From: Candidatus Cloacimonadota bacterium
Lineage (GTDB): Bacteria; Cloacimonadota; Cloacimonadia; Cloacimonadales; TCS61
Length of the DNA: 6,746 bases
Reading direction: 5' to 3'
NCBI GenBank assembly: GCA_030445745.1
Contig: JASUTE010000038.1
Coordinates: 1 to 6,746, forward strand
Shown here one piece after another: positions 444 to 6,746 of this stretch. Every line of letters begins with the position of its first letter. Position 1 is the stretch's first letter. The notes below the pieces were generated by a model. That model had not been told where the DNA came from. It did not search any database and saw nothing but the letters and a program-made list of their open reading frames with translations. The position numbers and the translations under genes are program-made.

Positions 444-470
444 AAAAAAAACCCCGGCAGTGCCAGGGTT
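444..470 (-). terminator. Rho-independent terminator of the 704-residue gene
   Basis: On the minus strand a 9-bp stem (450-458 pairing with 462-470) closes a 3-base loop and runs into eight T residues (444-451), two of which belong to the stem. The sixth pair from the base is G-U in a minus-strand transcript but would be a C-A mismatch in a plus-strand one, and no T-tract follows on the plus strand. This fixes the direction. It lies about 63 bp past the stop codon at 534. Confidence 0.88.
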
Positions 471-496
471 CTTACTTATATCTTAATTTACTTTAT

Positions 497-551
497 TTAA
501 AGTTTAGTTCAATTGACCATAGGATAATTGATACTATTTCAGTAGTAACAT
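497..551 (-). repeat. Conserved 3' end/3' UTR block, copy A
   Basis: This 55-bp block matches 4053-4107 at 53 of 55 positions (differences at 509 and 543). Only 18 bp of it is coding (the stop and the last five codons, encoding MLLLK); the other 37 bp lies after the stop codon and differs at a single base. Sequence on either side, both the spacer to the terminator and the upstream coding region, diverges quickly. An imperfect palindrome sits at 510-530 (CAATT pairing with AATTG around a CC-ATA-GG core). Confidence 0.85.
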
Positions 552-2648
552 CTTCCTAGTGGCAGTACCATTTGCTGTAGTAAGTTTATAAAAATAAACT
601 CCACTTCCAACAGAATTGTTATGGTCATCTTTGCCCTGCCAAACAATACTATGCTGACCGCTGGCTAAGTTTTCATCTACTAAAGTTGCTATTTTCTGTC
701 CTTTTAAATTATAGACTTCTAACTTAACATTTGTTGTATTTTCCAGAGCAAATTCTATAGTAGTTTCCGGATTGAAGGGATTGGGGTAATTTTGCTTCAA
801 ATTCAATTTTGCAGAGGGAATATCTTGTGGAGTATTATCTACAATAAGTGGATCTTCAAAGCTTACTTCAATCGCTGCATATTTCAGAGTACTACCATTG
901 TTTAAACCATATTGACTTAATGCATAGGAACCATAGCTATTATCGTCCATAAAAAAGAGATCGACCCTAGCAGTGGTCTCGGTAAGTGGTTTTAGTTTAT
1001 CGCCTGGATATACATAACAAGGTATCATATCTGCCAATTCAGAATAATAGTTCTCATCATCAGATTTAGCGTTAAGAAAAGCTGGTTGACTCCAAGTTTG
1101 GCCATAATCGGAAGAGGTAGCGATACAAATTTCAGGTGTTTGTGCCCAACCTTCATAACCGGGAATTTCATCGTAAGCATTCATAGCATTGGTCCCATCT
1201 TGCCATACAGCTACTAACCAGTTTTCCTTACTGGTAAGTTTGAAAGTGCTACAATGAAAAGAGCCATCCTGTAATTCTCCTTCATAGAAGAAAGATGGCC
1301 AGCAATATTGATATTCCACTAGTCCTTCTTCGCTATAGCTATCAACTACACCATCTTCATCCTGGTCCCAAGGCACCATAGGTTGGTCATCAGCAGGATC
1401 GGTACCCTCGATATATAAATCCCAAAAACCAAACTCTTTTGTTTCCACATCCCAATTGTAAATTTTGGGATAGAACCAATATGGGTAATACTGGTCGTTA
1501 GCGTAAGTTTCTTCCGAAGTTAGGCCCATAGCTGCAAAAAATTGGATCTTGGAATTACCATCTACAAATACAGCATTAAAGTGACCACCATCTGGACTAG
1601 GATAGAAGAAAATATCAGCTGGTGAACCATCATCATTTTCGATAAGATAAGTACCATCTTCATCTTGTGGATTGAAAACATCATAATGACAAGATTGAGC
1701 ATAATATTCAAAATCTTCTCCATAATTTTCGCTGTACCACACTTTCAAAGAATCGCCAGCCCAACCTACAAAAGCTACTTTACCGTCATCTGCTATAGCC
1801 ATATCTTTTATGGTTCTATCAACATCTTCGTACTGATAATAATCCATTAGAGGAAAAGTTTTATAAGTCCAATCCAAAGTATACTGCATATCAAGATCGG
1901 CTGTTGAGAAATCGGCATAACCCATTATGATGTTATAATTTGCCACCCCAGCTGAGTTGCTAGTAGAATTATCTCCATAAACATATACACGACGCTTATC
2001 TGCCTCGGGTGAAGGTCCGATCATAACTTTTGGCCAGATAAATTCATCATCGCTAGCTCCAGTTAACGGTTGGCTCACTTCTGGATTATCGATAACTATC
2101 CAAGGAGTAGTCCATAATCCCGCAGTTCCCATGAGATGATATAAGTCGTATGCCATATGTGAATCGTAAGAATTATCTGCCTCGGTTATTGCATGCCAGG
2201 AAACCATCGGATCACCAGTTATTGGATCAACATCAATACCCGCATATCCTTCACTTACATCAGTAGGACTAATTGGGTCAACCGTGGTTATATTACCATC
2301 ATTATCGATATAAGCATAATAGACACGACGAGTAGAATTAGAAGTTTCTTGAGTATGAAAAGCCACGTACATACCGTTTGCTGGTAAGCCACCTGGTTCT
2401 GAAATCTCTGGTTGCGAACGTAAACACCAACTGTTATAACCACCTGGCATATAATCGTAATAACTAGAAATTATATCAACTGGTGGAATTGTGAAATTGA
2501 CCTCGGGAGCTTCCCGTGTGGTTTTTGGAGCTATTCGCATACCCCCAATGTCAGTTTCAGCTGGTTGTTTCACTGGCATCATAGCATCAGCTGCAAATAG
2601 ATTAAATATTACGAAAGAAAGAGCTAATAAAATTAAAACCTTTTTCAT
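534..2648 (-). CDS. Secreted Asp-box/beta-propeller-like protein with C-terminal FlgD-like sorting domain
   Basis: A 704-residue exported protein of unknown substrate. Residues 1 to about 20 are a signal peptide (KK, then a hydrophobic LILLALSFVIF core, then FAA-DA). The middle is a large repetitive beta-rich region. It has an Asp-box at 512-519 (SSDYGQTW) and a degenerate one at 306-313, a pattern seen in sialidase/BNR-type propellers. A calcium-binding-like loop DxDxDGVVD lies at 428-436. Residues 619-704 form the FlgD-like Ig/sorting module (NYPNPFNPETT, WQGKDD, GSGVYFYKL, final KMLLLK), which in FCB bacteria directs or accompanies export through a type IX-like route. I see no catalytic sialidase Arg triad or FRIP motif, so no enzyme activity is claimed. 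The start is supported by AAAGGGGG four bases before ATG. It lies 75 bp after the 405-residue gene with no terminator between, and its stop is TAG. Confidence 0.88.
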   Translation of the reverse strand: MKKVLILLALSFVIFNLFAADAMMPVKQPAETDIGGMRIAPKTTREAPEVNFTIPPVDIISSYYDYMPGGYNSWCLRSQPEISEPGGLPANGMYVAFHTQETSNSTRRVYYAYIDNDGNITTVDPISPTDVSEGYAGIDVDPITGDPMVSWHAITEADNSYDSHMAYDLYHLMGTAGLWTTPWIVIDNPEVSQPLTGASDDEFIWPKVMIGPSPEADKRRVYVYGDNSTSNSAGVANYNIIMGYADFSTADLDMQYTLDWTYKTFPLMDYYQYEDVDRTIKDMAIADDGKVAFVGWAGDSLKVWYSENYGEDFEYYAQSCHYDVFNPQDEDGTYLIENDDGSPADIFFYPSPDGGHFNAVFVDGNSKIQFFAAMGLTSEETYANDQYYPYWFYPKIYNWDVETKEFGFWDLYIEGTDPADDQPMVPWDQDEDGVVDSYSEEGLVEYQYCWPSFFYEGELQDGSFHCSTFKLTSKENWLVAVWQDGTNAMNAYDEIPGYEGWAQTPEICIATSSDYGQTWSQPAFLNAKSDDENYYSELADMIPCYVYPGDKLKPLTETTARVDLFFMDDNSYGSYALSQYGLNNGSTLKYAAIEVSFEDPLIVDNTPQDIPSAKLNLKQNYPNPFNPETTIEFALENTTNVKLEVYNLKGQKIATLVDENLASGQHSIVWQGKDDHNNSVGSGVYFYKLTTANGTATRKMLLLK

Positions 2649-2652
2649 AAAT

Positions 2653-2660
2653 CCCCCTTT
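2653..2660 (-). promoter_or_regulatory. Ribosome binding site AAAGGGGG
   Basis: On the minus strand AAAGGGGG ends four bases before the ATG at 2648. It replaces the central A of AAAGGAGG with G but is otherwise a strong Shine-Dalgarno match. It fixes the start of the 704-residue protein at the Met that begins the signal peptide. Confidence 0.7.
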
Positions 2661-2723
2661 GTTTAATTTGGTTCATTTTTTGCTTCTATATTTCCAAGTT
2701 GTCAATTTATTTTTTTCTTAATG

Positions 2724-3941
2724 CTAATGTAATAGTAACATCTTTTTAAAAGTAACCTCTTGAGCTGCTTGTAGTTTGCAAAAATAAACACCGGAAGCAA
2801 CACTATTCCCCTGGTTATCTTTGCCTTGCCATAGTACTGTGTGACCACCAGCTGGTTTGTAATCATTCACCAGAGTTATTACTTTTTGACCATTTTGGTT
2901 GTAAACATCGATCTTCACATTAGTAGCTTGCTGAACATTGTAATGAATAGTAGTTTCCGGATTGAAAGGGTTGGGGTAAATTTGCACTTCTTGTAAAACT
3001 GGAACTATTTCTGCGCCTGTGTTTGTTCCAAATCCAGTTAACATATAGGCTCCCTGCGAACTGCAGGCTACAACGTTTAAGCAATTTACCAATGGGTTAA
3101 ATGTAAGCCTATTCACAGTTGCTTCAGGTAGCCCTGTGTTATAATATGTAAAACTTTCATCTTCAAAATAGTAGGAAACAACGCCAGGCTCTACTTCATC
3201 TTCATCCGCAAAAGATACAAAGGTCATGTTATTAAAAAGCCACAATATATCGGTTAAATATATATCCCAAAAAACTACTTCCCAATTTGCACCTCCATTT
3301 TCTGAACTATATAAGCCAGACGAGTAACTACTACCAGGGAAAATTCCTAAAAATATTGGTTCAACTTCTTCCCTAACAGCAAAGGCACTGAATGGGAAAC
3401 AAGTTTCTGTTTGCTGCCAATCAACCCCACTATTATAACTGTAATAAACATAATCACTACTTACTGTGTAGTTATTTCCGTATGTTATCATTGCCAGGCA
3501 AGTGTTCATATTAAAATATTCAACTTCATTCCAGGTTTCACCATCTTCAGAAGTTAATAAACCTTGCTCGAAACCTACATAATAGTGATTATCATTTTCA
3601 CAGAAATAGATAAAATTAGGCCAAGGAGTATATTCCAATACTTGGTGCTCGGCAGTTTCTAAATTGTATTTGTAAACACCGTCCGACCAGCTACCATTGC
3701 CCATTATAAAAATTAGCTCCGCCTCGCTTATCTTCTTTAGCTGTAATACTGGTAGGTTTGTTGAATGTAATTGCCAACCACCTGTTTCTTGAATCAAAAT
3801 TCCCTGTGAGGTTGCAGCAAATATCTCTGGAGTAAAAATCACATCATTAACATCATGATCACCGGGAATAATTTCCGTCCACTCGTAGGCAAACAAATTG
3901 ATAAAACATAATAATGCTAAGATAATAAGAATATTTCTCAT
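2724..3941 (-). CDS. Secreted BNR/Asp-box repeat protein with C-terminal FlgD-like sorting domain
   Basis: A 405-residue exported protein. Residues 1-18 form a signal peptide (MRN, hydrophobic ILIILALLCFINLF, cleavage likely after A18). Residues 20 to about 305 look like a beta-propeller with three Asp-box hairpins: SEDGETW at 131-137, SYNSGVDW at 168-175 and SSENGGANW near 212-220. This pattern is typical of BNR/sortilin/photosynthesis-stability-factor-like propellers, which bind ligands or support secretion; no enzyme motif is visible. Residues 320-405 are the FlgD-like sorting module (YPNPFNPETTI, WQGKDNQGN, SGVYF). Two oddities are SGVYFCKL, with Cys where the paralogues have an aromatic, and a final MLLLH in place of MLLLK. 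The ATG follows GGAGGT at a four-base spacing. It probably shares a transcript with the 704-residue gene downstream, while the terminator at 3992-4021 separates it from the 778-residue gene. Its stop is TAG. Confidence 0.88.
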   Translation of the reverse strand: MRNILIILALLCFINLFAYEWTEIIPGDHDVNDVIFTPEIFAATSQGILIQETGGWQLHSTNLPVLQLKKISEAELIFIMGNGSWSDGVYKYNLETAEHQVLEYTPWPNFIYFCENDNHYYVGFEQGLLTSEDGETWNEVEYFNMNTCLAMITYGNNYTVSSDYVYYSYNSGVDWQQTETCFPFSAFAVREEVEPIFLGIFPGSSYSSGLYSSENGGANWEVVFWDIYLTDILWLFNNMTFVSFADEDEVEPGVVSYYFEDESFTYYNTGLPEATVNRLTFNPLVNCLNVVACSSQGAYMLTGFGTNTGAEIVPVLQEVQIYPNPFNPETTIHYNVQQATNVKIDVYNQNGQKVITLVNDYKPAGGHTVLWQGKDNQGNSVASGVYFCKLQAAQEVTFKKMLLLH

Positions 3942-3945
3942 AACT

Positions 3946-3957
3946 ACCTCCCCTCCC
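3946..3957 (-). promoter_or_regulatory. Extended purine-rich ribosome binding site
   Basis: The minus strand reads GGGAGGGGAGGT ending four bases before the ATG at 3941. It has two overlapping GGAGG-like cores, of which the proximal one is correctly spaced. It supports the chosen start of the 405-residue protein. Confidence 0.7.
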
Positions 3958-3984
3958 TGTAATTTGTTAATTATTTATCAGTTA

Positions 3985-3990
3985 TGTCAA
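3985..3990 (-). promoter_or_regulatory. Candidate -35 element (TTGACA) before the 405-residue gene
   Basis: A perfect TTGACA lies on the minus strand 44 bp before the ATG at 3941, directly after the upstream gene's terminator T-tract, where a new promoter is expected. No convincing TATAAT follows at 16-18 bp, and sigma-factor consensus in this lineage is uncertain, so this is only a candidate. Confidence 0.3.
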
Positions 3991-3991
3991 T

Positions 3992-4021
3992 AAAAAAAAC
4001 GCCCTACAGTTGTAGAGCGTT
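3992..4021 (-). terminator. Rho-independent terminator of the 778-residue gene
   Basis: On the minus strand a 10-bp stem (3998-4007 pairing with 4012-4021) with a 4-base loop runs into eight T residues (3992-3999), two of them within the stem. The sixth pair from the base is G-U on the minus transcript and a C-A mismatch on the plus strand, which fixes orientation. It lies about 68 bp after the stop at 4090 and separates the 778-residue gene from the 405-residue gene. Confidence 0.9.
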
Positions 4022-4052
4022 ATTTTCCTAGTTTTGGTTGTTATTATTTTAC

Positions 4053-4107
4053 TTAAAGTTTAGTCCAATTGACCATAGGATAATTGATACTATTTCAGCA
4101 GTAACAT
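4053..4107 (-). repeat. Conserved 3' end/3' UTR block, copy B
   Basis: This is the second copy of the 55-bp block at 497-551, with differences at 4065 and 4099 only. It covers the last five codons and TAG stop of the 778-residue gene plus 37 bp of 3' untranslated sequence, ending 31 bp before the terminator. The imperfect palindrome lies at 4066-4086. Confidence 0.85.
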
Positions 4108-6426
4108 TTTCTGAGTTTTGTGCCAGTTTCCAGCACGAATACGGTAAAAATAAATTCCTGAACCAACCTGGTTACCATTGTCATCTTGCCCATTCCAAAC
4201 TACACTGTTTTCACCTTTTGCATAAGAAGTTGATGGATAAGTTTTAATTCTTTGACCTTTGGTATTAAAGATATCTATTTTTACATCTGCTGGAGTATTT
4301 ATTTGGAAAACGATTTTTGTGGTTGGATTAAATGGATTAGGATAATTTCCCATAACTTTAGCAAGCAGGGGAATTTCTTCCGAATTAGAAGTTTGCAGTA
4401 CAGTAAAAGAAACTGGTATCTCTACAATCTCTTCCTCAGGATCATTACTGGTAATTTTAATATTTGCACTATATATACCTGGCTCCATATTATTACTGTC
4501 AAAAGTTAAATCTATAATTTGATTTGCTCCAGGTTGCAAAATACCGCTGTAGATGTCGCTGCTTAGCCAGCGTGGTCCTCGCGATATCTGCACGCAAAGT
4601 TCATTATGTAAGTATTCTGTATTGTATGCTACTTGTAAACCGTCTTTTCCTGTGTAATTTTCTATACCAATTGTAGTAGAGGTTAATAGACCATTCAATT
4701 GGCGATAATTAAACAGAATAGTGCCATTTTCGTATAAAATTACTTGGAAAGTTAAGGTACTGTCGTTTATATAAAATCCCCATTGGTTGAACTGGATAAT
4801 AAAACGATTTTCAGCTTCGTGATAGTAAGCATAACAACTACCGTTTTTCTGATGCAAATCGTCCCAGAAAGGTGCTATTATATCATTCGGTTGTTCTGGT
4901 GTAGGAATAGGAAGGTTTTGATAAACAGAATTAGCTTGGTCAAAGGATAGATAACCATTCGCAAAAACATTCACACTAGTCTTGCTATCTCCATAAAACA
5001 TAAATTCAAAAGGCAATTCTATATTCACAGAAGATTCGTCACCTGTAAGACCAGTATCATACCCCACATTCATGATATCAAACCATTGGTAAACGGGCCC
5101 ATTAGGTGAATCACTATCTATCCACTGATAGCCAAATTCATCGGGACCGCCAAAATCACGGTAAATTTTGTCACCCGTATTATAAATCTCTCTTCCTTTA
5201 GGCATTTTTTCATCACTTGCCAAAGGCTTTTTCTTATCTGGCTTTCCCAAATCGGAATCAATAATTTCCAAACTAAAATCTAACTGGCTATCACCATTGT
5301 TTCCTAATTCCAATTGAAAGATTTCACTCAGGCCTGTTTCCAACTCCACCTGCACTTGCTGTGGCGATACTTCCAAATCGGGTGGTAAAAGGTTGGAAGC
5401 ACTCATCTGGATAATTACATCAGAATTTTCCGGATCATTTGTGGTAAAACTTAATTCACCAGTAAATTCACCTATTTCGGCGTTACTGAATTCTATTATA
5501 ACCTGAGTTTCTTCTCCTATACCAATTTCCATATTGGAAGAAGCATCGGTACTAAAACCATCTCCAGTTACAGTTAAATTGCTAATTTCTAAAGTTTCTA
5601 ATCCCAAATTTTGTAAATTTAGTCTATAGTAATTGGAATAACCACTGTAGGTAGTTCCAAAATCTATTTCGGAGTTAGATAGTTGTAAAAAAGGAACCTC
5701 TTGCCCAGTTAGAAACATCAGATATCGGTGCATTAGTGATGCCTTTGTATTGCTACCTTCAGCATCTTTAAAAGCTCCTAAAATCACGGAAGAACTAATG
5801 GTTCGATAACCTTCATCTGCTTCATAAGCTACTACTCTGCTTTTTTCATCTTGCGAAGTAAGCACCATTTGTCCGGCAGCTGGCGCTAATTCATCTACCA
5901 AATAATCGGCATCTGAACCATAAAGATATTCAAATTGATTCGGAGCTGTAAAAGTTCCTTCTACTCCCACAATATCTTCTATTCCAATACTTGCCCCATC
6001 ATTTTTGAAATTTATACCAAAATAATTAAATAATTCCGTATCAGAATGATCTGAACCCCAATCTACTCCTTCTATATATATTGCCTTACCAGCTTCTAGA
6101 AATTGAATTAAATTCTGCTGCTCGACCGAGCCAACAGCCCCAGGTGGGGTTGAACCGCACCCAGTACACCATATGCCAAGCGTGACAAATATAACCTCGT
6201 ACGAACTTAAATCATCTGGCAAATTGCTTTGGCTGGTATATTCATATCCATTTTCTTGCAAAGCCTGCTCTATGCCGTATTCACAGCCTATATTGCCGGC
6301 TCCGTCAGGATCTATAAAATCGGAATTGTTATCGTTATCCCAAACCAGTATTTCCTGAGCATTAATAGCTGGTAAAAGCCAAAACAGTAAAGCCACCAAA
6401 GCTGCTGTCTTATAGCTTTTTACCAT
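4090..6426 (-). CDS. Multidomain secreted protein: GATase-like, HYDIN/Ig-like and beta-sandwich modules with FlgD-like sorting domain
   Basis: A 778-residue exported protein. Residues 1-23 are a signal peptide (cleavage after INA). Residues 25-242 form an alpha/beta domain with LVWDNDNNSDF, YEVIFVTLG, an AIYIEGVDWG strand and a YRTISSSVILGAF segment. This resembles the non-catalytic GATase-like domain common at the N-terminus of Cloacimonetes surface proteins. Within it, C87-x-x-C90 may form a disulphide. Residues 246-345 form a HYDIN/choice-of-anchor-D Ig-like domain ending FTTNDPE. Residues 350-395 begin another Ig-like segment, followed by a Lys-rich linker at 396-412. Residues 425-616 form a beta-sandwich module (GGPDEFGYQWIDSD, IAPFWDDL, FQVILYENGTI, TIGIEN). 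Residues 617-676 form an Ig-like segment with ITSNDPEEE, and 693-778 the sorting module ending KMLLLK. The start is fixed by AGGAGG four bases before ATG. The role is probably adhesion or surface scaffolding; this is inference and no enzyme motif is seen. It has its own terminator and stops with TAG. Confidence 0.9.
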   Translation of the reverse strand: MVKSYKTAALVALLFWLLPAINAQEILVWDNDNNSDFIDPDGAGNIGCEYGIEQALQENGYEYTSQSNLPDDLSSYEVIFVTLGIWCTGCGSTPPGAVGSVEQQNLIQFLEAGKAIYIEGVDWGSDHSDTELFNYFGINFKNDGASIGIEDIVGVEGTFTAPNQFEYLYGSDADYLVDELAPAAGQMVLTSQDEKSRVVAYEADEGYRTISSSVILGAFKDAEGSNTKASLMHRYLMFLTGQEVPFLQLSNSEIDFGTTYSGYSNYYRLNLQNLGLETLEISNLTVTGDGFSTDASSNMEIGIGEETQVIIEFSNAEIGEFTGELSFTTNDPENSDVIIQMSASNLLPPDLEVSPQQVQVELETGLSEIFQLELGNNGDSQLDFSLEIIDSDLGKPDKKKPLASDEKMPKGREIYNTGDKIYRDFGGPDEFGYQWIDSDSPNGPVYQWFDIMNVGYDTGLTGDESSVNIELPFEFMFYGDSKTSVNVFANGYLSFDQANSVYQNLPIPTPEQPNDIIAPFWDDLHQKNGSCYAYYHEAENRFIIQFNQWGFYINDSTLTFQVILYENGTILFNYRQLNGLLTSTTIGIENYTGKDGLQVAYNTEYLHNELCVQISRGPRWLSSDIYSGILQPGANQIIDLTFDSNNMEPGIYSANIKITSNDPEEEIVEIPVSFTVLQTSNSEEIPLLAKVMGNYPNPFNPTTKIVFQINTPADVKIDIFNTKGQRIKTYPSTSYAKGENSVVWNGQDDNGNQVGSGIYFYRIRAGNWHKTQKMLLLK

Positions 6427-6514: not shown

Positions 6515-6551
6515 CTATTTCATTAGGACCTGTCCCATGAAATCCAGGGGA
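6515..6551 (-). repeat. Tandem palindromic repeat, unit 1 (37 bp)
   Basis: This is a direct copy of 6552-6589, differing by one inserted base and one substitution near the end (CCAGGGGA against TCCAAGGGA). Each unit contains a hairpin. Here ATTTCAT (6517-6523) pairs with ATGAAAT (6537-6543), and inside it GGA (6526-6528) pairs with TCC (6533-6535). The unit starts with the 14 bases that also form the end of the adjacent gene (6590-6603). Confidence 0.85.
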
Positions 6552-6589
6552 CTATTTCATTAGGACCTGTCCCATGAAATTCCAAGGGA
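6552..6589 (-). repeat. Tandem palindromic repeat, unit 2 (38 bp)
   Basis: This is the second unit, directly abutting the stop codon of the right-edge gene. The hairpin arms are 6554-6560 and 6574-6580. The order on the minus strand is gene end, spacer, copy of gene end, spacer, copy of gene end. There is no T-tract after either hairpin, so intrinsic termination is unlikely. The repeats may act as a 3' stabilising structure or be a replication-slippage or insertion product. Confidence 0.85.
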
Positions 6590-6746
6590 CTATTTCATTA
6601 GGATCATTTTGCGGGTAGAAGTATAGCGGCCGTTAGTCATGCGGAAAAAATATACTCCGCTTGATACACTGTTACCGCTATCATCGCGTCCACTCCATAA
6701 CACAGAATGCTGACCTGCTGACATCTCCTGATTTACCAGTGTCTTC
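6590..6746 (-). CDS. C-terminal end of a fourth secreted protein with FlgD-like sorting domain (partial at right edge)
   Basis: Minus-strand translation from the right edge gives 51 codons and then TAG at 6590-6592. The readable signature is KTLVNQEMSAGQHSVLW, then SGRDDSGNSVSSGVYFF, then RKMILMK at the C-terminus. It aligns with the last 51-55 residues of the 405-, 704- and 778-residue proteins: W-x-G-x-D-(D/N)-x-G-N-x-V-x-SGVYF and K-M-(I/L)-L-x-K. It is therefore the end of another exported protein carrying the same sorting module, and its N-terminal function lies outside the window. Its GC content is about 47% by hand count, higher than the 33-40% in sampled stretches of the neighbouring sorting modules. 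Two tandem hairpin repeats follow the stop directly. Confidence 0.85.
   Translation of the reverse strand, partial: KTLVNQEMSAGQHSVLWSGRDDSGNSVSSGVYFFRMTNGRYTSTRKMILMK

Follow-up and report, generated by a model that had tools for sequence, protein, structure and literature searches.

Gene 3' ends are familiar targets for integrating DNA, as illustrated by the phage att sites in tRNA genes and by Tn7 at glmS. IS200/IS605 elements and REP/RAYT systems carry a palindrome near each end, insert with a fixed sequence on their 5' side and give rise to small palindromic derivatives, and IS621, a member of the IS110 family, has a dinucleotide at its junction. For IS110/IS1111 elements, one published account (PMC11187229) describes subterminal inverted repeats and specific target selection. 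Here we describe a set of short, near-identical blocks in a Cloacimonadota genome, each of which is very probably a 39-bp non-autonomous derivative, or MITE, of a site-specific element with two tandem homologous DUF1670 genes.

Near-identical blocks at the ends of sorting-domain genes

The window, by which we mean the whole stretch of DNA analysed, is an entire contig (C29; 6,746 bp) from a Cloacimonadota genome of 2.04 Mb. Its minus strand carries host gene A (534..2648, 704 aa) and host gene B (4090..6426, 778 aa), both with a C-terminal sorting domain matched by PF18962 and PF13860 and both ending in KMLLLK before the stop codon, together with a 405-aa sorting-domain gene recognised by Pfam matches (2724..3941), whose product ends in KMLLLH. 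An earlier note on this DNA had drawn attention to a block shared by the two longer genes, and the observation holds: across the 37 bases compared, position 509 is the single difference between 497-533 and 4053-4089, a match far beyond chance, and 90% identity extends across a larger repeat (488-560 and 4044-4116). The TAG of each minus-strand gene directly precedes its copy, and the 405-aa gene has no block, both as the note had stated. The terminators it had placed 3' of the blocks are also found, as intrinsic terminator-like hairpins on the minus strand at 447..473 (read 473-447) and 3998..4021 (read 4021-3998), presumed to belong to the host transcripts.

Two of the note's statements needed revision. 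Sharing past the stop is real, but the limits move: the block starts one base before the stop codon, within the lysine codon (537 and 4093), and ends at 499 and 4055. The imperfect palindrome is likewise present, but we assign it to a transposon end and not to a conserved RNA fold. With these limits, which were set from empty sites in Poribacteria, copy A (499..537, minus strand; 39 bp, ATAG-TATCAATTATCCTATGGTCAATTGAACTAAACTTT) sits inside the last lysine codon of the 704-aa gene, for which it provides the third base of that codon and the TAG stop, and its near end (12 nt) and far end (26 nt) agree with the two ends of a DUF1670 element in a related genome (G006). Copy B (4055..4093, minus strand; 39 bp) sits inside the last lysine codon of the 778-aa gene on the same evidence. 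The displaced original lysine and stop codons can be read from the sequence as AAA TAA for the 704-aa gene (493..498, minus strand), an arrangement as in 25 of 29 and 10 of 10 full elements (below), and as AAG TAA for the 778-aa gene (4049..4054, minus strand); that the two differ is as expected of separate insertion sites.

Searching the source genome revealed a third copy (C27:26892-26953, E=2e-18), placed after another gene ending in KMLLLK and followed by AAA-TAA as its displaced lysine and stop, and copies A, B and C have an identical internal junction, TATCAATTATCCTATGG. Few sorting-domain genes bear the block: the TIGR04183 sorting-domain model gives 75 matches in this genome, 70 of them above cut-off, and the block stands at only three of about 70 such genes. 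The block is conserved in relatives: in other genera the matches are confined to its non-coding part and reach 92-97%, with E values down to 7e-10. The genome therefore holds more than the two copies, and the relatives more than the blank, that the note had associated with a recent local duplication.

Other repeats accompany sorting-domain genes in this genome. At 6515-6600 of the window, 37-38 bp tandem units (ATTTCATGGGACAGGTCCTRATGAAATAG...) follow the stop of a truncated sorting-domain gene; the genome contains 11 copies on five contigs, each terminating in a target copy, TGAAATAG, and the units resemble a small element, either a second one or a distant relative, that has repeatedly entered the same AAATAG. 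Our census of gene ends in the same genome took in 30 loci. At L025, L029, L021 and L032, the AAATAG stops of sorting-domain genes are followed by TATCA-, TATTA- or TACCA-like sequence, perhaps the decayed near ends of further elements.

The block joins both ends of a two-gene element

Where does the block come from? We searched 59 relatives, which match only its post-stop part, and many of the matches lie about 100 bp from contig ends, as expected of a multi-copy element. In G006 the block leads inward to two consecutive PF07900 (DUF1670) genes, with E values of 3e-57 and 1e-61 and scores of 194 and 208 bits against a gathering cut-off of 25. Past the second gene lies the other end of the element (TATGGTCAGTTGATA/CTATTT), where the contig stops with CATATGGTCAGTTGATA/CTATTT; read on the other strand, this sequence gives the beginning of the window block (AAATAG/TATCAA). 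The far end, GTCAACCTTCCTATGGTCAATTGGACTAAACTTT/AAATAG, has 26 consecutive bases in common with window copy B. Copy B consists of 12 nt of the G006 near end and 26 nt of the G006 far end, and from these matches the window block is both ends of a G006-type element, joined, with the genes deleted. A full DUF1670 element measures about 2 kb, whereas the block holds both ends of this autonomous element in 39 bp with neither an ORF nor a transposase gene, and it occupies three distinct sites with insertion-type junctions and a displaced lysine and stop of its own at each. Other short forms at sorting-domain stops measure 24 bp (G022), 32 bp (G001) and about 125 bp (G007 and G009).

No DUF1670 gene was found in the source genome, so the three copies are now immobile and their mobility there is historical. 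Across the phylum, DUF1670 genes occur in 8 of 124 genomes, and the far-end motif with a flank resembling lysine plus stop occurs in 11 of the 124, with 29 matches compared with one in a reversed-pattern control. In G006, G007, G055 and G094, many short-read contigs stop about 100 bp inside elements; it follows that short-read assemblies under-count the elements and lose DUF1670 genes.

Insertion within the last lysine codon

Complete elements with a DUF1670 pair stand directly at the stops of sorting-domain genes in G030 and at loci from many phyla. Among the tabulated elements of the window type, 28 of 30 abut a gene end like ...GVYFYxL..TRKMLIxK-stop; the end of the host product resembles ...SGVYFYTLTAGDFTATRKMLIRK before the stop, which is always AAA-TAG, and all eight host C-termini tested match Por_Secre_tail or FlgD_ig. 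On the far side, in 25 of 29 window-type elements, the first six bases of the flank consist of a lysine codon (AAA or AAG) and a stop codon (TAA, TAG or TGA), an outcome that by our own arithmetic has a chance of about 0.0015 at each. Different far flanks are found at L125, L135, L140 and L146, and G118 has AGA-TAG. A second orientation class (AAATAA/GGAAAATCTTCCGG..., AAATAG/CGACATTTGTCG... and AAATAG/TGACATATGTCC...) has AAR plus a stop in 10 of 10 cases. In Peptococcaceae, whose insertion sites showed no host gene of this kind, the near tip AAATAA/GGACATTTGTCC is found outside sorting-domain genes.

Three orthologous empty sites in other Poribacteria (L190, L195 and L196) allow occupied and unoccupied targets to be compared. 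Empty L190 reads ATTCGG-AAG-TAG-GAAGC and occupied L138 reads ATACGG-AAA-TAG-TATC...CTAT-AAG-TAG-GAAAA, and the pairs L195/L128 and L196/L141 agree with them. In general form, the empty sites read CGG, CAG or CGC, then AAG, then TAG or TGA, and the occupied sites CGG-AAA-TAG-element-CTAT-AAR-stop, a comparison between different species in which junction bases may have changed since insertion. At L140 the element lies within a leucine-rich-repeat gene, and removing it together with one AA leaves an open, correctly spaced repeat. The empty sites and L140 together place insertion at an AA within the lysine codon, with the tip giving A plus TAG and the old lysine and stop displaced. In the comparison with orthologous empty sites, an AA dinucleotide flanks the element on both sides; it may represent a duplication of 2 bp or may belong to the tip of the element. 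At L175, a palindrome like that of the window type, TATCAAATGATACCC, stands directly past the displaced AAATAG, after gene 2, which suggests that an element of a second type has inserted, in nested fashion, at the former stop codon.

A widespread and recently mobile family

An alignment of second genes, searched against a collection of bacterial and archaeal genomes, gave 74 loci, and a search of the collection with a single ORF1 protein gave no matches. The loci come from Poribacteria, Calditrichota, Ignavibacteria, Bacteroidota, KSB1, Neomarinimicrobiota, Gemmatimonadota, Peptococcaceae/Pelotomaculum, Desulfobacterales and others. Two tandem DUF1670 genes occur in nearly every locus of sufficient length, and in many phyla the pair is the sole gene content of the element. 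A tree divides first from second genes into two clades (57 of 57 sequences), a split suggesting that the heteromeric pair is old.

Copies of the element are recent. Those at two sites in Peptococcaceae are 100% identical across 2,011 bp and those at two sites in Poribacteria 99.7% identical across 2,033 bp, in both cases with different flanks, and a closed Poribacteria genome contains 16 DUF1670 genes, arranged as eight pairs. A viral or plasmid origin was sought in IMG/VR and in phage and plasmid collections, with no match.

The DUF1670 proteins and a proposed mechanism

To our knowledge, DUF1670 (PF07900) is a family without a described function or demonstrated enzyme activity. In AlphaFold models of the pair (mean pLDDT 83.4 and 83.0), the N-terminal part is helical, and a beta hairpin, a winged HTH and additional tri-helical HTH units are also present. 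Comparison with known structures listed mainly HTH proteins at low Z (6.0-6.6), some of them resolvase HTH domains, and a sequence profile found no solved relative better than E=0.001. Alignments of both gene families show invariant R, Q, L, H, H and Y residues, with no invariant acidic triad of the DDE kind and no invariant H-x-H. Neither G006 gene has a Pfam match to the IS110/IS1111 DEDD and serine transposase domains, to Y1 HUH TnpA or to a tyrosine or serine recombinase catalytic domain. A tyrosine recombinase was considered from the H..H..Y pattern and judged unlikely: AlphaFold assigns these residues to HTH helices, and the structural matches listed included no catalytic fold of a recombinase, an absence that is no proof; defence-system and phage families were set aside as well, giving only weak HTH-like matches. 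As modelled, the DUF1670 enzyme may be an unusual one that lacks a recognised nuclease fold.

How could an element enter the end of a gene and spare its product? We propose that the two HTH-built proteins together make up a heteromeric recombinase, or its targeting component, which would bind both the subterminal palindromes GGTCAWWTGA and the DNA that encodes the conserved C-terminal end, KMLLLK and stop, of sorting-domain proteins. Insertion would take place at the AA dinucleotide in the last lysine codon, where a near tip of ATAG (or ATAA) would restore lysine and stop as AA/ATAG and the old AAR-TRR would move past the far end; the host protein would remain unchanged because the element brings a replacement lysine and stop codon. 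With 75 sorting-domain matches, a genome such as the source genome would offer dozens of sites. The three copies there may be relics mobilised in trans or derived from one deleted parent, and their identical internal junction suggests that they probably stem from a single deleted parent and moved as a unit.

Are the DUF1670 pairs themselves the transposase of a widespread, undescribed class of elements that has no known nuclease fold, integrates in sorting-signal codons and restores lysine and stop? We regard this as an even call, and infer catalysis by DUF1670 from gene content alone. The proteins might instead only regulate or target, with a host enzyme or another recombinase catalysing in trans, and the presence of HTH folds alone in the models favours such a division of labour; yet we find it doubtful, as the pair is the only gene content of elements in so many phyla and the invariant R, Q, H, H and Y residues could be catalytic.

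A universal guide RNA is an unlikely component of the elements, because some of them have too little non-coding sequence after gene 2: 56-71 bp (L144, L122 and L124) compared with about 240-295 bp in others. A conserved, possibly structured stretch (GGTGAAACGGAAGCAGGCTCTGCTGGGAAGCAACCTGCC...) lies near the second end at L079 (40-230, minus strand), L104, L105 and L115, and Peptococcaceae loci L153-L158 have a different conserved, possibly structured stretch after gene 2. These stretches overlap or follow gene 2 and are absent from the shortest elements.

Alternative origins of the blocks

The main competing version of our own reading is that the three blocks are scars left in place when three full-length elements were deleted, and not 39-bp MITEs that moved. 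The palindrome TCAWWTGA, common to the near and far ends, invites such deletion, and the 24-bp form in G022 looks exactly like its product; nevertheless, the junction TATCAATTATCCTATGG is common to the three copies, an unlikely coincidence had the deletions been independent, and we think it improbable that the copies arose in this way.

The spread of 3' ends among sorting-domain genes by gene conversion or segmental duplication is far less credible. Similarity does reach slightly into the last codons (93% over 68 bp), but upstream it stops within the conserved KMLLLK codons, and downstream identity stops at the element boundary, beyond which come a copy's own AAA-TAA or AAG-TAA and unrelated sequence. 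This boundary and the displaced lysine and stop belonging to each copy make a recombination tract unlikely, and transposition of the parent element has independent evidence.

It is extremely improbable that the block serves sorting-domain genes as a conserved regulatory RNA in their 3' UTRs, whether an sRNA or a protein target: it always lies past a stop codon in the source genome and has an imperfect palindrome and a terminator downstream, but it occurs at only 3 of the roughly 70 sorting-domain genes, folds weakly (z -2.0, -1.1 and +0.5 for the three copies), shows in copy C a broken palindrome with pairs lost and none of the compensatory changes that the earlier note had named as support for a functional element, has no Rfam match in the window at E<=1, and in relatives is the end of a two-gene element. 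From the note's list of readings we thus retain the very small mobile element and drop the regulatory RNA, sRNA or protein target, along with the recombination tract as unlikely; a MITE of a DUF1670 element remains our preferred explanation.

Significance and comparison with known systems

The short elements are MITE-like, a kind already known. As far as we can tell, the parent family has not been described, nor have its pair of HTH-type proteins and the use it makes of sorting-signal codons: among 5.39 million papers searched, none contained 'DUF1670' (ISfinder lay outside this search, and a numbered listing there is possible), and the ISDol1/ISNCY literature yielded nothing on DUF1670 elements. 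The elements offer DUF1670 a concrete and testable mobile-element role across many bacterial phyla, and recurring 3' UTR repeats and contig breaks near sorting-domain genes find an explanation. The targeting strategy, in which the DNA encoding a conserved sorting signal would be recognised, would give an element tens of safe targets in a genome without altering the host protein. If DUF1670 alone catalyses insertion, its HTH-only architecture would be unusual for a recombinase, and it might serve as a tool for adding DNA to gene ends.

Both element genes are members of PF07900, whose genes in related loci likewise stand as tandem pairs within elements. The blocks resemble the MITEs of bacterial insertion sequences in being short and gene-less, in retaining both parent ends, in occurring in several copies and in having a parent in relatives. 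They differ in that the shortest forms measure only 24-39 bp, insertion is directed to where a protein-coding motif ends and the parent proteins fit no IS transposase family that we recognised. With IS110/IS1111, DUF1670 elements share subterminal inverted repeats unequally distant from the tips, sequence-specific targets and a junction dinucleotide; by contrast, they encode a DUF1670 pair and not a DEDD or serine transposase, and they have no universal non-coding region of guide-RNA size. Palindromes near the ends, a fixed 5' sequence and small palindromic derivatives recall IS200/IS605 and REP/RAYT, although no Y1 HUH enzyme was found in DUF1670 elements, AA lies on both sides and the proteins are HTH-like. 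Like the integrases that act at gene 3' ends and the Tn7-like elements, DUF1670 elements use a gene 3' end as a safe target that is restored or left intact. Unlike them, they address a repeated protein motif with dozens of sites per genome, and provide only a single base of the lysine codon and the stop.
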